Shown here: positions 17,188 through 25,495 of the stretch, piece by piece | How positions within the stretch are numbered: the stretch's first letter is position 1 | Layout: each line of letters starts with the position of its first letter | Assembly: GCF_900112135.1 (NCBI RefSeq) | Contig: NZ_FOLC01000007.1 | Span: 62,001-126,000 of the forward strand | DNA length: 64,000 nucleotides | From: Collimonas sp. OK412 | GTDB lineage: Bacteria; Pseudomonadota; Gammaproteobacteria; Burkholderiales; Burkholderiaceae_D | Direction: 5' to 3' | Translations under genes and position numbers: made by a program | The notes under the pieces: model-generated | The model's input: only the letters and a program-made list of their open reading frames with translations | What the model was told of the DNA's origin: nothing | The model's database searches: none

Positions 17188-17201
17188 GTAATAATAATTA
17201 C
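17188..17201. promoter_or_regulatory. Operator-like palindrome 1 (upstream of the acyl-CoA dehydrogenase)
   Basis: GTAATAATAATTAC, a near-perfect palindrome and the first of four copies of consensus GTAATwwwAATTAC in the window. It lies about 100 bp upstream of the copy that overlaps the predicted dehydrogenase promoter. The other copies flank a TetR-family regulator gene at 24872. Confidence 0.6.
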
Positions 17202-17278
17202 CAAAAAGTCAGAGGTCTGTCTCTAGCATTCATATTGCAAACCGGCGTATTCTCAAATACCATCAATCAGGGTTGTTT

Positions 17279-17316
17279 TTGAATTGTGATCGATGAAAGT
17301 GTAAATTAAATTACAC
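17279..17316 (+). promoter_or_regulatory. Predicted promoter overlapped by operator-like palindrome 2
   Basis: TTGAAT (17279-17284) and TAAATT (17302-17307) are spaced by 17 bp. The -10 lies inside GTGTAAATTAAATTACAC (17299-17316), whose outer arms GTGTAA/TTACAC are perfectly inverted. Binding here would block RNA polymerase on the acyl-CoA dehydrogenase operon. Confidence 0.62.
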
Positions 17317-17338
17317 GGTAAAAATATCTGGAGACGCC

Positions 17339-17407
17339 ATGCCTCACGTATTTGCCTGCCGTACCGCCGGCTTGATTGCGCTTGCCGTTTGCCGGAGCAA
17401 CGCATGA
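17339..17407 (+). CDS. Possible 22-codon leader ORF coupled to the acyl-CoA dehydrogenase gene
   Basis: An ATG with GGAG five bases upstream (TGGAGACGCC) opens a 22-residue frame (MPHVFACRTAGLIALAVCRSNA) that ends in ATGA, overlapping the dehydrogenase start at 17404. The peptide resembles no family I know and may be a translational-coupling leader or a chance ORF. Its ribosome site is at least as good as that of the dehydrogenase gene itself. Confidence 0.35.
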   Translation: MPHVFACRTAGLIALAVCRSNA

Positions 17408-18543
17408 TCCCGCGCCTGTTGTTCAATTCCGACCATGAAGAGTTTCGCCAGAGCCTGCGGCGCTTCCTGCAGGCTGAAGTCTTGCCGCGCCATGCCGGCT
17501 GGGAGGAACAAGGGTTTGTCGACCGCGATATCTGGCAGCGCGCCGGCGAGCTCGGCTTCCTGTGCACCAACATGCCGGAAAACTATGGCGGCTCCGGCGT
17601 CGACCGCAAGTTCAGCACCATCGTGCTGGAAGAGCTGGCAAGCAGCAACGCGTCGGGCATAGGCTGGCCGCTGCATTCCGACATCGTCGCGCCTTACCTG
17701 CTGCGTTACGGCAGCGAAGAACTGAAGCAAGCCTGGCTGCCGAAGATGGCCGCCGGCACCGCGATCACGGCGATCGCGATGACCGAACCGGGCACCGGTT
17801 CGGACCTGCAGGCGATCCAGACCACGGCCATCGAAGATGGCGACGACTACATCGTCAACGGCGCCAAGATATTCATCACCAACGGCTATAACAGCGACAT
17901 GGTGGTGGTGGCGGTGAAGGTGGGCGACAAGAGCCGCGGAGCGAAGAATGTATCGTTGCTGGTGATAGAAGCCGGGCGTCCCGGTTTCAGCAAAGGCAAG
18001 CCATTGAAGAAGATCGGCATGAAAGCGCAGGATACCTGCGAGCTGTTCTTTGACAACGTACGGGTCCCGAAGAGCAACATCATCGGCCAGGTCGGCGCCG
18101 GCTTCACCATGCTGATGCAAGAGCTGGCCTGGGAACGGCTGCTGATCGCGATTACCTCGGTGGCCAATGCGGAAGCGATGCTCGCCGCAACCATCGAATA
18201 CACGCGCGACAGGCAGGCTTTCGGCCGTACCGTATCGTCATTCCAGAATACGCGCTTCAAGCTGGCGGAGATGAAAACCGAACTGCAGATCGCGCGCGTG
18301 TTTGTCGACCGCTGCGTCGAGCTGGAAGTCGAAGGCGAGCTGCGGGTGGATGCCGCCGCTGCCGCCAAGTACTGGTGTTCCGACCTGCAAGGCAAGGTGC
18401 TGGACCAATGCCTGCAACTGCATGGCGGTTACGGTTTCATGCAGGAGTACCCGATTGCGCGCGCCTATATCGATGCGCGCGCCCAGCGGATTTACGGCGG
18501 CACCAACGAAATCATGAAAGAGATCATTTCTCGGTCAATATGA
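17404..18543 (+). CDS. Acyl-CoA dehydrogenase, long-chain (LCAD) type
   Basis: A 379-aa flavoenzyme that oxidises acyl-CoA to trans-2-enoyl-CoA. FAD and substrate motifs are TEPGTGSDLQAIQ, FITNGYNSDMVV and RQAFGRTVSSFQNTRFKL. The end reads QLHGGYGFMQEYPIARAY ... QRIYGGTNEIMKEII. At the MCAD catalytic position (YEGT) this protein has Gly (YGGT), whereas Glu244 in QELAWERLLIA occupies the alternative base position used by LCAD and isovaleryl-CoA dehydrogenase. The start at 17404 has GGAG six bases upstream. It is the first of the rightward genes (dehydrogenase, SDR, racemase, SCP2) and lies behind two TetR-type palindromes. Confidence 0.9.
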   Translation: MIPRLLFNSDHEEFRQSLRRFLQAEVLPRHAGWEEQGFVDRDIWQRAGELGFLCTNMPENYGGSGVDRKFSTIVLEELASSNASGIGWPLHSDIVAPYLLRYGSEELKQAWLPKMAAGTAITAIAMTEPGTGSDLQAIQTTAIEDGDDYIVNGAKIFITNGYNSDMVVVAVKVGDKSRGAKNVSLLVIEAGRPGFSKGKPLKKIGMKAQDTCELFFDNVRVPKSNIIGQVGAGFTMLMQELAWERLLIAITSVANAEAMLAATIEYTRDRQAFGRTVSSFQNTRFKLAEMKTELQIARVFVDRCVELEVEGELRVDAAAAAKYWCSDLQGKVLDQCLQLHGGYGFMQEYPIARAYIDARAQRIYGGTNEIMKEIISRSI

Positions 18544-18586
18544 GTGATGAGTGCGGTTTTTTCTATTTTGAATAAAGACAGAAACT

Positions 18587-19519
18587 ATGGAAAATGAAAT
18601 GCAAAATGCATTGCGCTACGACGGCCGGGTGGCGATCGTCACTGGCGCCGGCAACGGCCTGGGCCGGGTGCATGCCTTGCTGCTTGGTGCGCGCGGCGCC
18701 CATGTGGTGGTAAATGACCTGGGCGGCGATGTCCATGGCGGCGGCAAGTCCAGCGCTGCCGCCGACCAGGTGGTGGCGGAGATCAAGGCTACCGGCGGCA
18801 GCGCGGTCGCCAACTACGATTCGGTGGAAGACGGCAGCCAGATCGTGCAGGCCGCGCTCGATCATTTCGGCGGCGTCGATATCGTGATCAACAATGCCGG
18901 CATCTTGCGCGACAGCAGTTTCGCCAAGATGACAGAGGACGACTGGGACCTGATCTACCGGGTGCACGTGCTGGGGGCGTTCCGCGTCACCCATGCGGCT
19001 TGGCCGCACATGCGCAACAAGGGTTACGGCCGCATCGTCATGACCACCTCCGCTGCCGGCATCTACGGCAATTTCGGCCAGGCCAACTACAGCATGGCGA
19101 AGATGGGCCTGGTCGGCATGGCGAATACGCTGGCGATCGAAGGCGCCGCCAAGAACGTGCTGGTCAATACCATCGCGCCGCTGGCCGGCTCGCGCATCTC
19201 GGAAACGGTGATGCCGCCGCAGATGATGGCGGCGCTCAAGCCGGAGTTCGTGGCGCCGCTGGCGGCATACCTGTGCCACGAGAGCTGCAGGGAAAACGGC
19301 AGCCTGTTCGAAGTCGGCGCCGGTTTCCACGCCAAGCTGCGCTGGCAGCGCACGCAAGGCCATCATTTCCACGGGCAGGCTTTCGGTCCCGAACAGGTGG
19401 CCCGGCATTGGCAAGAGATCGTCGATTTCGACGACGCGACCTATCCTGCCAGCATAGGCGAATCGTTGACATCCATCGTGCAGGACGTCGGTTCGCCTTT
19501 CGGCCAGGGCAAGCCATGA
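18587..19519 (+). CDS. SDR family 3-hydroxyacyl-CoA dehydrogenase, MFE-2/HSD17B4-like
   Basis: A 310-aa short-chain dehydrogenase. The Rossmann motif is TGAGNGLGR (from residue 19), with [17 protein letters not shown], and catalytic Ser155, Tyr168 and Lys172 (GQANYSMAK). The strings [26 protein letters not shown] and [15 protein letters not shown] are hallmarks of the dehydrogenase part of peroxisomal multifunctional enzyme type 2, which acts on (3R)-hydroxyacyl-CoA. No hydratase-2 (MaoC) or SCP2 domain is fused here; an SCP2 protein is encoded separately 1.4 kb downstream. Likely role: oxidation of 3-hydroxyacyl-CoA from branched or bulky acyl chains. Same operon as the dehydrogenase. Confidence 0.87.
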
Positions 19520-19525
19520 TGCGTA

Positions 19526-20671
19526 ATGGCTAATCCGCTTCTGTCCGGCATCCGGGTGCTCGACCTGACCCGTTTGCTGCCCGGTCCCTTCTGCAGCTTT
19601 TACCTGGCGCAGCTGGGAGCCGAAGTGGTCAAGCTGGAAGAGCCGCAAGGCGGCGATTACGCGCGCATGCTGTCGCCTGAACTGTTTACCCTGCTCAACC
19701 GCGGCAAGAAATCGGTCACCCTGGATTTACGGCAGCCGCAAGCGGTCACCGTGCTCAAGGTCATGGCGGCGCAGGCCGATGTCCTGATCGAATCGTTCCG
19801 GCCCGGCGTGATGGACAAGCTGGGCTGCGGCTACCACGACCTGAAGCTGATCAATCCGCGGCTGGTCTACGCCGCGCTCACCGGTTACGGGCAGACCGGC
19901 CCCTACAAAGACCGCGCCGGGCACGACATGAATTACTGCGCCTATGCCGGCTTGCTGGACCAGACTGGCGCTGCCGGCGGCCCGCCGGTGCTGTCGAATT
20001 TCCAGGGCGCCGACCTCGCCGGCGGTGCGCTGACCTGCGCCCTCGGGATACTGGCGGCGGTGATCGGCGCGCGCGCCTCGGGCCAGGGCACCATGGTCGA
20101 TGTCGGCATGCTGGACGGCACGCTGGCGCTGCAGGCGCTATCGCTGGCCACTATCCGCACGCTGGGCGGCAGCGCGGAGCGCGGCGGCGATATCTTGAGC
20201 GGCGGCCTGGCCAACTACAGCATCTACGCTTGCGCCGACGGCAAACATGTGGCGCTGGCGGCGCTGGAGCCTAAATTCTTCCTCAATTTCTGCAAGGCGG
20301 TGGATCGGCCCGACCTCGCGGCCTTGCCGCTCGCGCCGGGAGCGGATGGCGCAGCCTTGAGAGCGGCTTTAAGCGCATTGTTCAAGACCCGCTCGCGCGA
20401 TGAGTGGGAACAGCTGCTGGCCGGCCGCGACTGCTGCGTATCTGGCATCTACACACCACAGGAAGCATTGGACAACCCGCAGGTCAAGGCGCGCGGCCTG
20501 GTCCGCATGGAAGACGGCAAGCCTGTATCGGACCTGCCGATCAGGTTCAGCGATGCTGTCGGCACGGCTGGCGATTGTCCGGCGCTGGGAGCGGATACTG
20601 CCGATGTGCTGGCGGGCCTGGGATTTGATGCGGCAGCGCTGGCCGCGTTGCACGCAAGCGGCGCGATTTGA
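19526..20671 (+). CDS. Alpha-methylacyl-CoA racemase-like CaiB/BaiF protein
   Basis: A 381-aa class III CoA-transferase-fold protein, 6 bases after the SDR gene. It begins GIRVLDLTRLLPGPFCSFYL and continues GAEVVKLEEPQGGDYAR. The racemase catalytic residues fit: His133 in AGHDMNY, Asp163 in FQGADLAGGA, and Glu248 in LEPKFF. Their spacing (30 and 85) equals that of His126/Asp156/Glu241 in the M. tuberculosis enzyme. That favours an AMACR role, interconverting 2R/2S methyl-branched acyl-CoAs so the dehydrogenase can accept them, rather than transferase activity. With the LCAD-type enzyme, MFE-2-like SDR and SCP2 it suggests degradation of methyl-branched, isoprenoid or sterol-type acyl chains. 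Confidence 0.88.
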   Translation: MANPLLSGIRVLDLTRLLPGPFCSFYLAQLGAEVVKLEEPQGGDYARMLSPELFTLLNRGKKSVTLDLRQPQAVTVLKVMAAQADVLIESFRPGVMDKLGCGYHDLKLINPRLVYAALTGYGQTGPYKDRAGHDMNYCAYAGLLDQTGAAGGPPVLSNFQGADLAGGALTCALGILAAVIGARASGQGTMVDVGMLDGTLALQALSLATIRTLGGSAERGGDILSGGLANYSIYACADGKHVALAALEPKFFLNFCKAVDRPDLAALPLAPGADGAALRAALSALFKTRSRDEWEQLLAGRDCCVSGIYTPQEALDNPQVKARGLVRMEDGKPVSDLPIRFSDAVGTAGDCPALGADTADVLAGLGFDAAALAALHASGAI

Positions 20672-20734
20672 AGCAAGGCTGTTCAGCAAAAATATCGGTA
20701 AACGGTTATCCAGATCGATGTGCGAGGAGAGGCC

Positions 20735-20854
20735 ATGGACGTGCAAAGAATCCGGTCGCCGACCATGAAAGTCAAGCGCGGCGAAGTGGAAAAACGCTAC
20801 GCCGCGTTGATGGAGAAGGAACTGCAGGTGCGGGATGCAGTCGGATGGGAATGA
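20735..20854 (+). CDS. Possible 39-aa small protein between racemase and SCP2 genes
   Basis: An ATG preceded by GAGGAGAGG (3 bases spacing from the last G) opens a 39-codon frame. The peptide is charged and helix-prone, with KVKRGEVEKRYAALMEKEL in its centre. Codon use looks like that of the neighbours. The strong ribosome site is the main argument; no family is recognised. It could also be a decayed remnant of a longer gene. Confidence 0.35.
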   Translation: MDVQRIRSPTMKVKRGEVEKRYAALMEKELQVRDAVGWE

Positions 20855-20923
20855 CAGGCCGCTTGCCTGCATCCGCTTGCATTACTGCCGGCAACAGATT
20901 TTTAAACAACCAGAGGAAATGCA

Positions 20924-21241
20924 ATGACAGTCAACGATATCATCAAGCTCATGCCGTCCTGCCTGAACACCGTAGCGGCGGCGGACATGAAAAGCAGTAT
21001 CCAGTTCGATATTTCGAAGCCGATGTACCTGCTGATCGATCATGGAACCTGCGCCGCGCACGAAGGCGTGGTCGACTCCCCCGATGTGGCGCTGACCATG
21101 GCCGATGAAGACTTGAAGGCCATGCTTAAAGGCGAGCTGAACGGCGCCATGGCCTTCATGAGCGGCAAGCTGAAACTCAAGGGCGACATGATGCTGGCCC
21201 AGCGCATTCCTTCCCTGTTTGACGCCAGCAAGATCGGCTGA
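20924..21241 (+). CDS. SCP2 sterol-binding domain protein
   Basis: A 105-aa single SCP2 domain, a small cytosolic hydrophobic-pocket fold that carries acyl-CoAs or sterols. The typical pattern is VDSPDVALTMADEDLKAMLKG followed by AFMSGKLKLKGDMMLAQRI, seen here in overlapping pieces. Start codon follows AGAGGAAATGCA. In eukaryotic MFE-2 this domain is fused to the hydroxyacyl-CoA dehydrogenase; here both are separate genes in one locus, supporting a joint role in bulky acyl-CoA oxidation. It ends convergently with the FadB-like gene; a GCTCTTC/GAAGAGC hairpin at 21252-21277 lies between them. Confidence 0.88.
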   Translation: MTVNDIIKLMPSCLNTVAAADMKSSIQFDISKPMYLLIDHGTCAAHEGVVDSPDVALTMADEDLKAMLKGELNGAMAFMSGKLKLKGDMMLAQRIPSLFDASKIG

Positions 21242-21294
21242 GTTGCCTGCAGCTCTTCGTCGTCGCCGAGGAAGAGCCTCAGCGTATCCCTGTA

Positions 21295-23427
21295 TCACTC
21301 GAAGCGCTTGCCCTGTTCCGCCATTGTCACGAGGATTGCCGCCGGCGCGAAATAACTGCCGAACCGGGCTGACAGCTGGTTTGCCCGCTGGACAAAATCG
21401 GCGACGCCGTAGGCATTGATGTATTGCAGGGCGCCGCCCTGGAACGGCGCGAAACCCCAGCCGAAAATGCTGCCGATGTTGGCGTCGGCAACGGTCAGCA
21501 CTACCTGTTCCTCGTAGCATTTTGCCGCCTCGTTGGCTTGCACAAACATCATGCGCTCGATCAGGTCCTTTTGCGGCAGCTGCGTGGCGGCGAGCGGAAA
21601 CGCTTGCTGCAAGCCGGGCCACAGGTGCTTGTTCTGGTTTTCGGGATAATCATAAAATCCCTTGCCGGTTTTCTTTCCCTTGCGGTCCAGCTGGGCCACC
21701 ATTTTTTCCAGCCCGGCATCGGCCGGATGGCCGGCGAAGGGCTTGCCGGCCTCGGCAAAATCCTTGCGCGTCTGTTCCAGGATATGCAGGGACAAGGACA
21801 AGCTGACTTCGTCATGCACGGCCAGCGGTCCTACCGGCATGCCGGCCTGCAAGCCAGCCATCTCGATGGCGCGCGGATGCTGGCCTTCCATCAGCAGCTT
21901 CAAGCCTTCCATCACGTAGGTGCCGAATACGCGCGAGGTGTAGAAGCCGCGTGAATCGTGGACCACGATCGGGGTTTTCCTGATCTGCTGCACGTAGTCG
22001 AAGCCGCGCGCCAGCGTCTGCTGGCTGGTCTGCTGGCCGACGATGATTTCAACCAGCGGCATCTTGTCTACCGGCGAGAAGAAATGCAGGCCGATGAAAT
22101 TTTCCGGCCGCACGCTGGCTTGCGCCAGGCCGGTAATCGGCAGGGTAGAGGTGTTCGAAGCGAACACGGCGTCTTTACTGATCAACGCCTCGGTCTTGCG
22201 AGTCACCTCGGCCTTCACCTGGCGATCTTCAAACACCGCTTCGATAATCAGGTCGCAGCTCGCCAGGTCGTTGAAATCCACGGTAGGCGTGATGCGCTTG
22301 AGCAGGGCTTCCTTGCCCTCCGCGGTTTGCTGCTTGCGCTTGATCGCCTTGTCGAGCAGCTTGCTGGAATAATCCTTGCCGTGCGCCGCGGTTTCCAGGC
22401 TGTTGTCCAGCAACACCACGTCCATGCCGGCCTTGGCCGAGGCATAGGCGATGCCGGCGCCCATCATGCCGGCGCCGAGGATCCCTACCTTGCCGACTTT
22501 GGACGGCGCAAAGCCTTCCGGGCGCGACTTGCCCTTGTTGATGGCGTTCAGCTGGAACCACAAGGTGCCGATCATGTTCTTGGCCACCGGCGACAATGCG
22601 CAATTGACGAAGTAGCGCGATTCGATTTCGCAGCCGGTATCGAAATCGACGATGCCGCCTTCGAATACGCAGCTCATGATATTGGTCGCCGCCGGATAAT
22701 TGCCATGCGTCTTGGCGCTTGCCATGGACGGCGCGATGGCCCACAGCTGGCCGTTGGCCGGACTGCGCGAGTCGCCGCCGGGCCAGCGGAATTTCTTGTC
22801 GTCCCACGGCTGCTTCGCCTTGGGATTGGCCAGGCACCAGGCCTTGGCTTTTGCCAGCAGCTGTTCCCTGTCGCTCACCAGCTCCTGGACAATGCCTTGC
22901 TGCAGCGCCTCTTCGGCGCGCAGTTCCTTGCCTTCCAGCATGAGCTGCAATGCGCCCTGGATGCCGATCATGCGCGGCAAACGCTGCGTGCCGCCGCCGC
23001 CCGGCAGCAGGCCGAGCTTGACTTCCGGCAGGCCGAACTTGGCTTTCGGGTTGTTGATGGCGATGCGGTGATGGCAGGCCAGCGCCAGCTCCAGGCCGCC
23101 GCCCAGGGCGGTGCCGTTCAGCGCAGCCACCACCGGCCGGTCGCACAACTCCAGGCGGCGCAGGAAACCTTTGAATTCCTGCACCAGGTCGAAAGCTGCT
23201 TGCGCGTCGGTGATCTGGAACAGTTTTTCAATATCGGCGCCGGCGACGAAATCCGCCTTGCCCGAGGTGATGATGACGCCGGTGATGGCTGGATCGGCTT
23301 CGATGGCGGCAATCGCCTCCATGAACGGCGCCGTCAGCGCTTCGTTCAATACATTCATCGACCGTCCTGGCATGTCCAGGGTCAAGGTCACGATATTGTC
23401 GCTGTCTTTTTGGAAATTTACACTCAT
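21295..23427 (-). CDS. FadB/FadJ-like bifunctional enoyl-CoA hydratase / 3-hydroxyacyl-CoA dehydrogenase
   Basis: A 710-aa cytosolic multifunctional beta-oxidation enzyme. The N-terminal crotonase domain (to about residue 190) has the oxyanion/active-site stretches ADFVAGADIEKL, GTALGGGLELALACH and FGLPEVKLGLLPGGGGTQRL. The second half is the NAD-binding domain (VGILGAGMMGAGIAY), with SNTSTLPIT, catalytic His in GLHFFSPVDKMPLVE, and C-terminal GKGFYDYPE. All key residues look intact. It follows the thiolase gene by 17 bases on the same strand, forming the thiolase-hydratase/dehydrogenase operon opposite to the dehydrogenase operon. It acts on (3S)-hydroxyacyl-CoA, unlike the SDR of the same locus. 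Confidence 0.93.
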   Translation of the reverse strand: MSVNFQKDSDNIVTLTLDMPGRSMNVLNEALTAPFMEAIAAIEADPAITGVIITSGKADFVAGADIEKLFQITDAQAAFDLVQEFKGFLRRLELCDRPVVAALNGTALGGGLELALACHHRIAINNPKAKFGLPEVKLGLLPGGGGTQRLPRMIGIQGALQLMLEGKELRAEEALQQGIVQELVSDREQLLAKAKAWCLANPKAKQPWDDKKFRWPGGDSRSPANGQLWAIAPSMASAKTHGNYPAATNIMSCVFEGGIVDFDTGCEIESRYFVNCALSPVAKNMIGTLWFQLNAINKGKSRPEGFAPSKVGKVGILGAGMMGAGIAYASAKAGMDVVLLDNSLETAAHGKDYSSKLLDKAIKRKQQTAEGKEALLKRITPTVDFNDLASCDLIIEAVFEDRQVKAEVTRKTEALISKDAVFASNTSTLPITGLAQASVRPENFIGLHFFSPVDKMPLVEIIVGQQTSQQTLARGFDYVQQIRKTPIVVHDSRGFYTSRVFGTYVMEGLKLLMEGQHPRAIEMAGLQAGMPVGPLAVHDEVSLSLSLHILEQTRKDFAEAGKPFAGHPADAGLEKMVAQLDRKGKKTGKGFYDYPENQNKHLWPGLQQAFPLAATQLPQKDLIERMMFVQANEAAKCYEEQVVLTVADANIGSIFGWGFAPFQGGALQYINAYGVADFVQRANQLSARFGSYFAPAAILVTMAEQGKRFE

Positions 23428-23444
23428 GATCTGGATCCAGTCCG

Positions 23445-24650
23445 TTAGACACGTTCGATGATGGTGGCGATGCCCATGCCGCCGCCGACGCAGAGCGAGA
23501 TCAAGGCGCTTGCCTTGCCGCTGCGCTCCAGTTCGTCGAGCGCGGTGCCGAGGATCATGGCGCCGGTTGCGCCCAGCGGATGGCCCATGGCGATCGAGCC
23601 GCCATTGACGTTGACCCGCTCCGGGTCGATATCGAGGTCGCGGATGGCGCGCATCACGACCGCGGCAAACGCTTCATTGATTTCAAACAGGTCGATATCC
23701 TTGGCTGACATCTTGGCCTTGGTCAGCGCCTTGCGGGCGGCAGGAGCGATGCCGGTCAGCATGATGGTCGGCTCCGAGCCGGTGACGGCGGCGGCGACAA
23801 TCCGGGCGCGCGGCTTCAGTCCCAGCCTCTGGCCCATCTCCTTGCTGCCGACCAGCACCAGCGCAGCGCCGTCGACGATGCCGGAGGAATTGCCGGCATG
23901 GTGCACATGGCTGATTTTTTCGACGGTAGTGTATTTGCGCAGCGCGGTCGCATCGAAACCCATCTGGCCGATCTGTTCGAAGGACGGGTTCAGTGCTGCC
24001 AGGTTTTCCATGGTGGTCTGGGCGCGGATGTATTCGTCATGATCCAGCAGCACCAGGCCATTGAGGTCCTTGACTGCGACCAGCGACTTGCTGAAGCGCC
24101 CTTCGGCGCGGGCGCGCGCGGCTTTCTGCTGCGACTGCACGGCAAAGCTGTCGACATCGCTGCGCGAGAAATTTTCCAGCGTAGCGATCAGGTCGGCGCC
24201 TATGCCTTGCGGCGCAAAGCCGGTGATCTGGTTGACCCGCGGATCCATGAACCAGGCGCCGCCGTCCGAACCCATGGCCCAGCGCGACATGCTTTCAACG
24301 CCGCCGGCCACCACCAGCTGCTCCTGGCCGGACATGACTTTCATTGCCGCCAGGTTGACCGATTCCAGGCCCGAAGCGCAAAACCGCGATTGCGTCACGC
24401 CCGGCACCGACTGGTCCCAGCCGGCGTAGAGCACCGCAGTGCGGGCGATGTCGGCGCCTTGTTCGCCGACCGGCGTCACGCAGCCGAGCACTACATCGTC
24501 GACTTGCGAGGTATCGAGGCGGTTGCGTTGCTGCAGCGCCTGCAGCAGCTGGGCCAGCAGGTTGACCGGCGAGACCTGGTGCAGGCTGCCGTCTTTCTTG
24601 CCCTTGCCGCGCGGGGTCCGTACGGAATCGAAAATATAGGCTTCAGTCAT
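23445..24650 (-). CDS. Acetyl-CoA C-acyltransferase (thiolase)
   Basis: A 401-aa thiolase that cleaves 3-ketoacyl-CoA. The nucleophile is Cys91 in [11 protein letters not shown]; the second active-site region is [18 protein letters not shown] with the His, and the C-terminal Cys is in SLCVGGGMG. The start [17 protein letters not shown] is typical of FadA/FadI-type enzymes. It is the first gene of the leftward operon with the FadB-like gene. Its predicted -10 (TATAAT) sits inside operator palindrome 3, so transcription is likely repressed by the divergent TetR-family protein. Confidence 0.93.
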
Positions 24651-24694
24651 AGCGTCTCCGGCTGGTATTTGCTTGTATGCGCTTGTATGTTTGC

Positions 24695-24725
24695 GTAATT
24701 ATAATTACACTTCGATCGATGTCTC
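24695..24725 (-). promoter_or_regulatory. Thiolase promoter overlapped by operator-like palindrome 3
   Basis: GTAATTATAATTAC (24695-24708) is a perfect 14-bp palindrome. On the minus strand it holds TATAAT (24698-24703), with GAGACA (24720-24725) 16 bp upstream as a -35-like box. The thiolase ATG is 45 bases downstream of the palindrome. Confidence 0.68.
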
Positions 24726-24830
24726 GCTTGATGTCCGATCCATGCTGAACAGCCACTGTAGTTAAAGCAATGGCCAGCGTCAATTGGTAATCTACTCTAA
24801 ACCAGGACAGGAACTGTCTGGAGCGCGATA

Positions 24831-24844
24831 GTAATATTAATTAC
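24831..24844. promoter_or_regulatory. Operator-like palindrome 4 in front of the TetR-family gene
   Basis: GTAATATTAATTAC, followed by AC as in copies 2 and 3. It ends 27 bases before the regulator ATG and includes a -10-like TAATAT, the position expected for autorepression. Confidence 0.65.
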
Positions 24845-24871: not shown

Positions 24872-25495
24872 ATGGCCTCTGAAAAACAGAAAATCGTATT
24901 GGACCGCGCTCTGCTCAAGCCATTGATCAGGCAAAGGATAGAAAACGCTGTGCTGGATTTGTTTTCAGAACGCGAATTCCACAGCGTCGCCTATGGAGAA
25001 ATCGCTAGCGCCGCCAGTGTCTCCTTGCAGACTATCTATAAATACTACGGCAGCAAGGAAGCGCTGCTGTTTGCCTGCCTCGAGACCTGGCTGAGCACCC
25101 TGGCGTCGCGCATGCTCGATCACCTGCAAGGCATCGAGAGTTGCCAGGACAAGCTGCGCAAGGTGTTCTGGGTAGTGCTGGATTTTTTCGACCGCAATCC
25201 CAAGGTCAGCCAGCTGATCATGAGTTCGCTGCAGATCAGCGCATGGGGGCGCGACCGTACTTTCCGCCAGCCGGAAATGATGGAAGTGCTGATGAAAACC
25301 CTGGCCGACGGCAGGGCGCAAGGCGTGCTGATCGACGAAGTGGATGAAAAGATCCTGCTCGATTATTTCATCGGCATCCTGGAAAGGCTGGTGCACATGC
25401 ACACCATGCGCGGCGCAAAAGAGCCGCTGGCATTACAGGCCAATGCGCTGTTCAGGATGCTGTGGCGGGCCATCGCCAAGCCTGAACCGGTTTAG
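24872..25495 (+). CDS. TetR/AcrR-family transcriptional regulator of the acyl-CoA locus
   Basis: A 207-aa regulator. The N-terminal helix-turn-helix spans about residues 33-60: YGEIASAASVSLQTIYKYYGS, with the usual KEALLFACLE after it. The rest is an alpha-helical ligand and dimerisation domain. It is divergent from the thiolase operon, and the 221-bp gap holds palindromes 3 and 4. Related palindromes precede the acyl-CoA dehydrogenase operon, so I infer it represses all three units until an acyl-CoA binds. TetR-family repressors of beta-oxidation (for example PsrA and FadP types) are known in proteobacteria; which subgroup this belongs to is unclear. Confidence 0.88.
   Translation: MASEKQKIVLDRALLKPLIRQRIENAVLDLFSEREFHSVAYGEIASAASVSLQTIYKYYGSKEALLFACLETWLSTLASRMLDHLQGIESCQDKLRKVFWVVLDFFDRNPKVSQLIMSSLQISAWGRDRTFRQPEMMEVLMKTLADGRAQGVLIDEVDEKILLDYFIGILERLVHMHTMRGAKEPLALQANALFRMLWRAIAKPEPV

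Follow-up and report, generated by a model that had tools for sequence, protein, structure and literature searches.

Dimers of TetR-family proteins typically recognize a palindrome and release it upon ligand binding, and FadR of Bacillus, a TetR repressor of beta-oxidation that is released by acyl-CoA, has an operator of the TGAATGA/TCATTCA type. Here we describe a locus in a 64,000-bp stretch of the Collimonas sp. OK412 genome (contig NZ_FOLC01000007.1, positions 62,001 to 126,000; hereafter the window), in which a TetR-family regulator gene lies among genes for acyl-CoA degradation together with four copies of the palindrome GTAA-N6-TTAC. The locus resembles the FadR system in the best solved-structure match of its regulator over the whole length and in the kind of target genes, and differs in its operator and its small local regulon. 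PsrA of Pseudomonas and the PsrA-like Smlt2053 are also TetR autorepressors linked to fadBA-type genes, with an operator given as G/CAAAC(N2-4)GTTTG/C (PMC10304680); the palindrome is unlike that site, as a preliminary description of this DNA had stated, and the NCBIfam PsrA model (Vibrio) scores the regulator at 31.9 bits, the cut-off being 300. In betaproteobacteria, the TetR proteins FadP and LiuQ are predicted to regulate the degradation of fatty acids and branched-chain amino acids; they share the family and the degradation role with our regulator when compared by description only, and FadP is described from Ralstonia, Burkholderia, and Comamonadaceae with ∼18 genes per genome (PMC5343134). 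PA3973 of Pseudomonas aeruginosa, also a TetR regulator, is encoded next to an acyl-CoA dehydrogenase gene and has two 14-bp palindromes at its promoter, but these have the motif SAAGRNMTGAACG and lie 11 bp apart, and hundreds of peaks were reported by chromatin immunoprecipitation (PMC9736018). We found no description of this operator or regulator in the literature searched, which was available in part and left subscription papers mostly outside.

We estimate a probability of roughly 88%, on sequence and comparative grounds, that the TetR protein encoded at 24872 acts on GTAA-N6-TTAC pairs to repress the catabolic operons and its own gene, and that an acyl-CoA releases it. The four palindromes are very probably the landing sites of this neighboring repressor:

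17188 to 17201, no strand: putative operator 1 (copy 1), GTAATAATAATTAC, distal operator in the promoter region of the acyl-CoA dehydrogenase (ACAD) gene
17301 to 17314, no strand: putative operator 2 (copy 2), GTAAATTAAATTAC, over the likely -10 element of the ACAD operon
24695 to 24708, no strand: putative operator 3 (copy 3), GTAATTATAATTAC, on the thiolase side
24831 to 24844, no strand: putative operator 4 (copy 4), GTAATATTAATTAC, immediately before the regulator gene
24872 to 25495, plus strand: TetR-family regulator, the predicted repressor

All four palindromes named in the preliminary description (starting at 17188, 17301, 24695, and 24831) are present. Its consensus holds as a palindrome, although the conserved core is GTAA-N6-TTAC and the AT-rich www center is a Collimonas trait; outside Collimonas the center is free, with positions 5 and 10 favoring T/C and A/G. 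The intergenic placement it gave to all four stands for copies 2 to 4, which lie between genes, whereas copy 1 is ∼220 bp upstream of a likely ugpB start read by eye, and the longest ugpB open reading frame (ORF), beginning at TTG, would extend into it. At up to 2 mismatches, the window yields 8 strand-matches, which are these four places only, and 100 dinucleotide shuffles yield a mean of 0.26 and at most 2. Genome-wide (5.46 Mb, 60 contigs) there are 7 places at up to 1 mismatch, four of them at this locus, the others being a non-palindromic match at an ORF end (C14:16460) and two matches within ORFs (C16:59638 and C27:273358). The pattern GTAAWN4ATTAC adds C16:35547 and C13:88895, within ORFs of 557 and 402 codons, respectively, the latter resembling an ABC solute-binding protein. 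GTAATN4ATTAC with 1 mismatch occurs at 64 places compared with 40 for the reversed control, and the loose pattern is thus mostly background, with the signal in exact and near-exact sites. Among the matches listed and followed there is no further convincing site that would indicate a wider regulon in this genome, and the scan for randomly scattered sites, put forward earlier as a refuting test, leaves the regulon reading standing.

The sites are also conserved and accompany the regulator. A scan of a collection from which records close to that of the window may be missing gave 47 loci encoding a relative of the regulator (7 from Collimonas, one from another member of the Oxalobacteraceae, and the rest mostly from Nevskiales-type gammaproteobacteria). 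At least one GTAAN6TTAC site lies within 330 bp upstream of the TetR relative in 41 of the 47 loci and at least two in 38, for a total of 79 sites; in 200 dinucleotide shuffles the mean is 0.15, and no shuffle exceeds 2. Loci with a pair range over 50 to 97% protein identity and 55 to 71% GC, and because they are related, the 38 paired loci are not 38 independent events. Within the genus, all four sites are at the locus in at least 11 of 15 genomes, with copies 1 and 2 spaced 112 or 113 bp apart in at least 11, and the reduced Collimonas genome G102 lacks the sites as well as the TetR and thiolase genes. In a family search, a close TetR relative (≥73% identity) is present in 13 of 195 genomes, and 142 others match distant TetR proteins. 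The comparison with orthologous loci proposed earlier thus shows paired sites accompanying the TetR gene in Collimonas, two other Oxalobacteraceae, and most Nevskiales-type loci. A tree of 47 TetR rows, which left out those of L054, L041, L064, and L065, places 10 Oxalobacteraceae in one group (100/98) among gammaproteobacterial rows, and transfer of the regulator between the two proteobacterial classes is possible.

Loci selected by the thiolase instead of the regulator behave similarly. Thirty loci with 1.5-kb flanks were taken from 35 thiolase matches at E ≤1e-150 in 34 of 190 family genomes. Where this TetR gene lies in the flanks, the 400 bp preceding the thiolase contain two sites (13/13); where none lies alongside, the site pair is absent (0/17), with no sites within those 400 bp. 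The most telling of these controls is G016 (L111, Oxalobacteraceae), in which the thiolase is 87% identical and the thiolase-FadB pair is kept, but the sites are absent, a different gene lies upstream of the thiolase, and the genome has no TetR match at E ≤0.001.

Separated targets keep pairs of their own. The ACAD relative of G021 (81%) is on a different contig from the tetR gene and has its own site pair, 119 bp apart, as does that of G128 (82%, also 119 bp), and in Stutzerimonas stutzeri (L035) the thiolase and tetR each have a pair upstream, 3 kb from one another. The sites are therefore tied to the enzymes and not only to the regulator gene. Among 12 sites in six Nevskiales genomes, 7 are at the tetR-fadA region, one is inside an ORF (L132), one precedes a KfrA_N ORF (L130), and three precede acyl-CoA-related genes, namely, an ACAD (L138), a short-chain dehydrogenase (L141), and an acetoacetate-decarboxylase-like ORF that is followed by an ACAD (L139). 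Across loci the operators are paired, 100 to 216 bp apart, with two sites at a promoter region also in cases in which a single gene would seem to require control. This comparative evidence strongly supports the local, autoregulated TetR regulon of acyl-CoA genes that the preliminary description had predicted from the layout.

Copy 1 might instead serve the divergent ugpB gene and link sugar or glycerol-phosphate uptake to fatty-acid degradation, and it does lie between ugpB and the ACAD gene in Collimonas (loci L009 to L013). We consider this improbable. The likely ugpB promoter, read by eye where the scan found none, is ∼110 bp from copy 1, and the stretch between them is poorly conserved, while the spacing between copies 1 and 2 is fixed. 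The pair is moreover kept in G128 and G021, in which the far-side genes are different (GST-like and GGDEF-like, respectively, by eye), and because the gene beyond copy 1 varies between lineages, copy 1 belongs with the ACAD promoter.

The regulator itself has an N-terminal TetR_N helix-turn-helix (PF00440, 38.9 bits; cut-off, 24), and the YsiA-like C-terminal ligand domain model TetR_C_4 gives it 20.5 bits, the cut-off being 21. A profile of 31 relatives finds as its best solved structure 3whb, a fatty acid metabolism regulator, over the full length (E 1.8e-16), followed by 1vi0, 5gp9, 5gpa, and 3ang, which we take to be FadR proteins, the first three from Bacillus. All 31 aligned relatives match the NCBIfam FadR (Bacillus) model NF053878 at E ≤1e-8, with a best value of 3.1e-21. 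Because the family resembles FadR-type proteins, an acyl-CoA is a likely ligand.

Several observations weigh against assigning the palindromes to this regulator. Its own score with NF053878 is 49.8 bits, far short of the curated cut-off of 200. Sixteen of the 17 control thiolases are weak controls, being only 59 to 69% identical. Site counts are uninformative in some genomes: six from Nevskiales have 17 strand-matches compared with 15 for the reversed control, with only placement telling, and in three from Oxalobacteraceae the control exceeds the motif. The motif is absent in all four Hydrocarboniphaga relatives (50 to 54% identical) and in Polycyclovorans L030, in which the recognition stretch VSLQTIYKYYGSKEALL is unchanged; their sites may have drifted, or other sites may be in use. 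Covariation with the recognition helix is uninformative, since these motif-lacking relatives retain the same helix. We note that another palindrome, GTAAGGTTGATAACCTTAC, lies between the thiolase and regulator genes of L030 (L030:8767-8785). L054 (26% identical) is also without the motif, and L045 to L047 have a single site each. Finally, four other Collimonas genomes (G130, G175, G117, and G203) carry two copies of the same palindrome, spaced 25 bp, at a KfrA-type locus, at these positions:

L164, 3319 to 3357: KfrA-type tandem palindromes
L165, 3337 to 3375: KfrA-type tandem palindromes
L166, 3324 to 3362: KfrA-type tandem palindromes
L167, 3036 to 3074: KfrA-type tandem palindromes

These precede an ORF of 290 to 293 codons, with Pfam KfrA_N confirmed in L164, and a tyrosine-recombinase-like ORF lies opposite in L164 to L166 (Phage_integrase confirmed in L164). 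In Panacagrimonas (L130), a KfrA_N ORF has one palindrome just upstream. The palindrome alone thus does not name its protein, and a regulator encoded elsewhere, of the KfrA type or a paralogous TetR, could bind it, the adjacent TetR gene being incidental. This is slightly less probable still than the link to ugpB, as the presence of paired sites parallels that of this TetR gene across families, with no pair where the gene is absent, and the window's genome has no KfrA-type tandem pair among its exact GTAAWN4ATTAC sites. The KfrA-type sites may be a convergent operator on a mobile or chromosome-maintenance element. That the palindromes are chance products of intergenic DNA, given that such DNA is richer in AT than the genes and that the loose pattern exceeds its control genome-wide, is very nearly discounted by the shuffles, the genome counts, and the conservation in GC-rich relatives.

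With the neighboring TetR protein as the preferred repressor, a mechanism can be outlined in which we infer the binding and the repression, the dimeric state, the acyl-CoA as ligand, and whatever cooperation there is between the two sites of a pair. The 24872 protein would bind GTAA-N6-TTAC as a dimer, and each of the two promoter regions would carry two dimers, on two operators ∼110 to 140 bp apart. One region, with operators 3 and 4, is between the divergent thiolase-FadB operon and the regulator gene; the other, with operators 1 and 2, precedes the operon for the ACAD, short-chain dehydrogenase, CaiB, and SCP2 proteins. The bound regulator would block its own gene together with both catabolic operons. 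An acyl-CoA, most likely one that is long-chain or 2-methyl-branched, would bind the regulator in the presence of substrate and release it. The layout is a further example of a well-known type of switch. Two likely promoters are relevant to operator placement:

17279 to 17307, plus strand: likely ACAD promoter, TTGAAT-N17-TAAATT, read by eye; the consensus scan found nothing here
24755 to 24783, minus strand: likely thiolase promoter, TTGACG-N17-TACAGT, found by the scan

The preliminary description had copies 2, 3, and 4 overlapping -10 boxes, which holds in part. Copy 2 covers TAAATT, 17 bp after TTGAAT, but only as read by eye. In copy 3, the scan detects a TATAAT for fadA, but the other aligned Collimonas loci lack this TATAAT and largely keep the TTGACG-17-TACAGT promoter ∼50 bp upstream of it; copy 3 would act either over the internal TATAAT or, if the latter promoter is used, as a roadblock ∼40 bp downstream of the TTGACG-17-TACAGT start. 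For copy 4, the consensus scan detected no promoter in the direction of tetR. We considered and rejected helical phasing between the sites of a pair: at 10.5 bp, R is 0.37 over 42 loci (p ∼0.003), but these are related, and R is 0.26 over 29 distinct distances (p ∼0.14). Phasing is also unsupported because the ACAD pairs differ by 6 to 7 bp between lineages (112 to 113 compared with 119 bp).

The leaders have features of their own. The thiolase leader (24651 to 24694) has 20 extra bases, with GCTTGTATG twice, relative to eight aligned relatives. Just past operator 2, after GGAG, is an ORF of 22 codons (window positions 17339 to 17407), with a stop overlapping the likely ACAD ATG (ATGA); by eye, extra bases in this region are also present in L012 and L013 and not in L009 to L011.

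The enzyme genes of the locus are as follows:

17404 to 18543, plus strand: acyl-CoA dehydrogenase (ACAD), in an ORF from 17389, the ATG at 17404 matching starts in relatives
18587 to 19519, plus strand: short-chain dehydrogenase of the HSD17B4 or (3R)-hydroxyacyl-CoA dehydrogenase type
19526 to 20671, plus strand: CaiB/BaiF family protein, with alpha-methylacyl-CoA racemase nearest among solved structures
20924 to 21241, plus strand: SCP2-domain protein
21295 to 23427, minus strand: FadB/FadJ-type enoyl-CoA hydratase/3-hydroxyacyl-CoA dehydrogenase
23445 to 24650, minus strand: FadA-type thiolase, exceeding the NCBIfam NF006090 cut-off

The first four are to the right of copies 1 and 2 in this order, fadB and fadA are on the opposite strand, and tetR is divergent from the thiolase gene. 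Among solved structures, the ACAD is closest to a mitochondrial long-chain acyl-CoA dehydrogenase (407 bits); a bacterial enzyme of this type scores 399 bits. The short-chain dehydrogenase matches the human HSD17B4 domain at 406 bits, compared with ∼130 for the best FabG-type entries, and the yeast-type two-domain enzyme 2et6 at 522 bits over two copies. For the CaiB/BaiF protein, alpha-methylacyl-CoA racemase (207 bits) leads formyl-CoA transferase (187 bits) by a modest margin. By analogy, a racemase, such a dehydrogenase, and an SCP2 protein together are reminiscent of the peroxisomal branched-chain route. The ACAD clusters of G128 and G021 contain only ACAD and CaiB in the stretches available (18 kb and 12 kb), and the short-chain dehydrogenase and SCP2 protein are therefore not core members.

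A broader proposal is more tentative, and we think it rather unlikely as a whole: that these regulators form an undescribed FadR-like clade in Proteobacteria with obligatory operator pairs, GTAA-N6-TTAC sites 100 to 216 bp apart being bridged by protein into a DNA loop at each promoter region, and that in Collimonas they would govern a peroxisomal-like branched-chain route (alpha-methylacyl-CoA racemase, an LCAD [long-chain acyl-CoA dehydrogenase]-like dehydrogenase, an HSD17B4-like dehydrogenase, and SCP2) beside FadAB.

The locus provides an operator that can be tested, GTAA-N6-TTAC, and a defined group of target genes, common to Collimonas and Nevskiales-type bacteria, and the paired-operator layout is a simple test case for looping by a TetR protein. 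If the regulon is as proposed, a scan for the sites would predict which of these soil bacteria grow on branched or long-chain acids.

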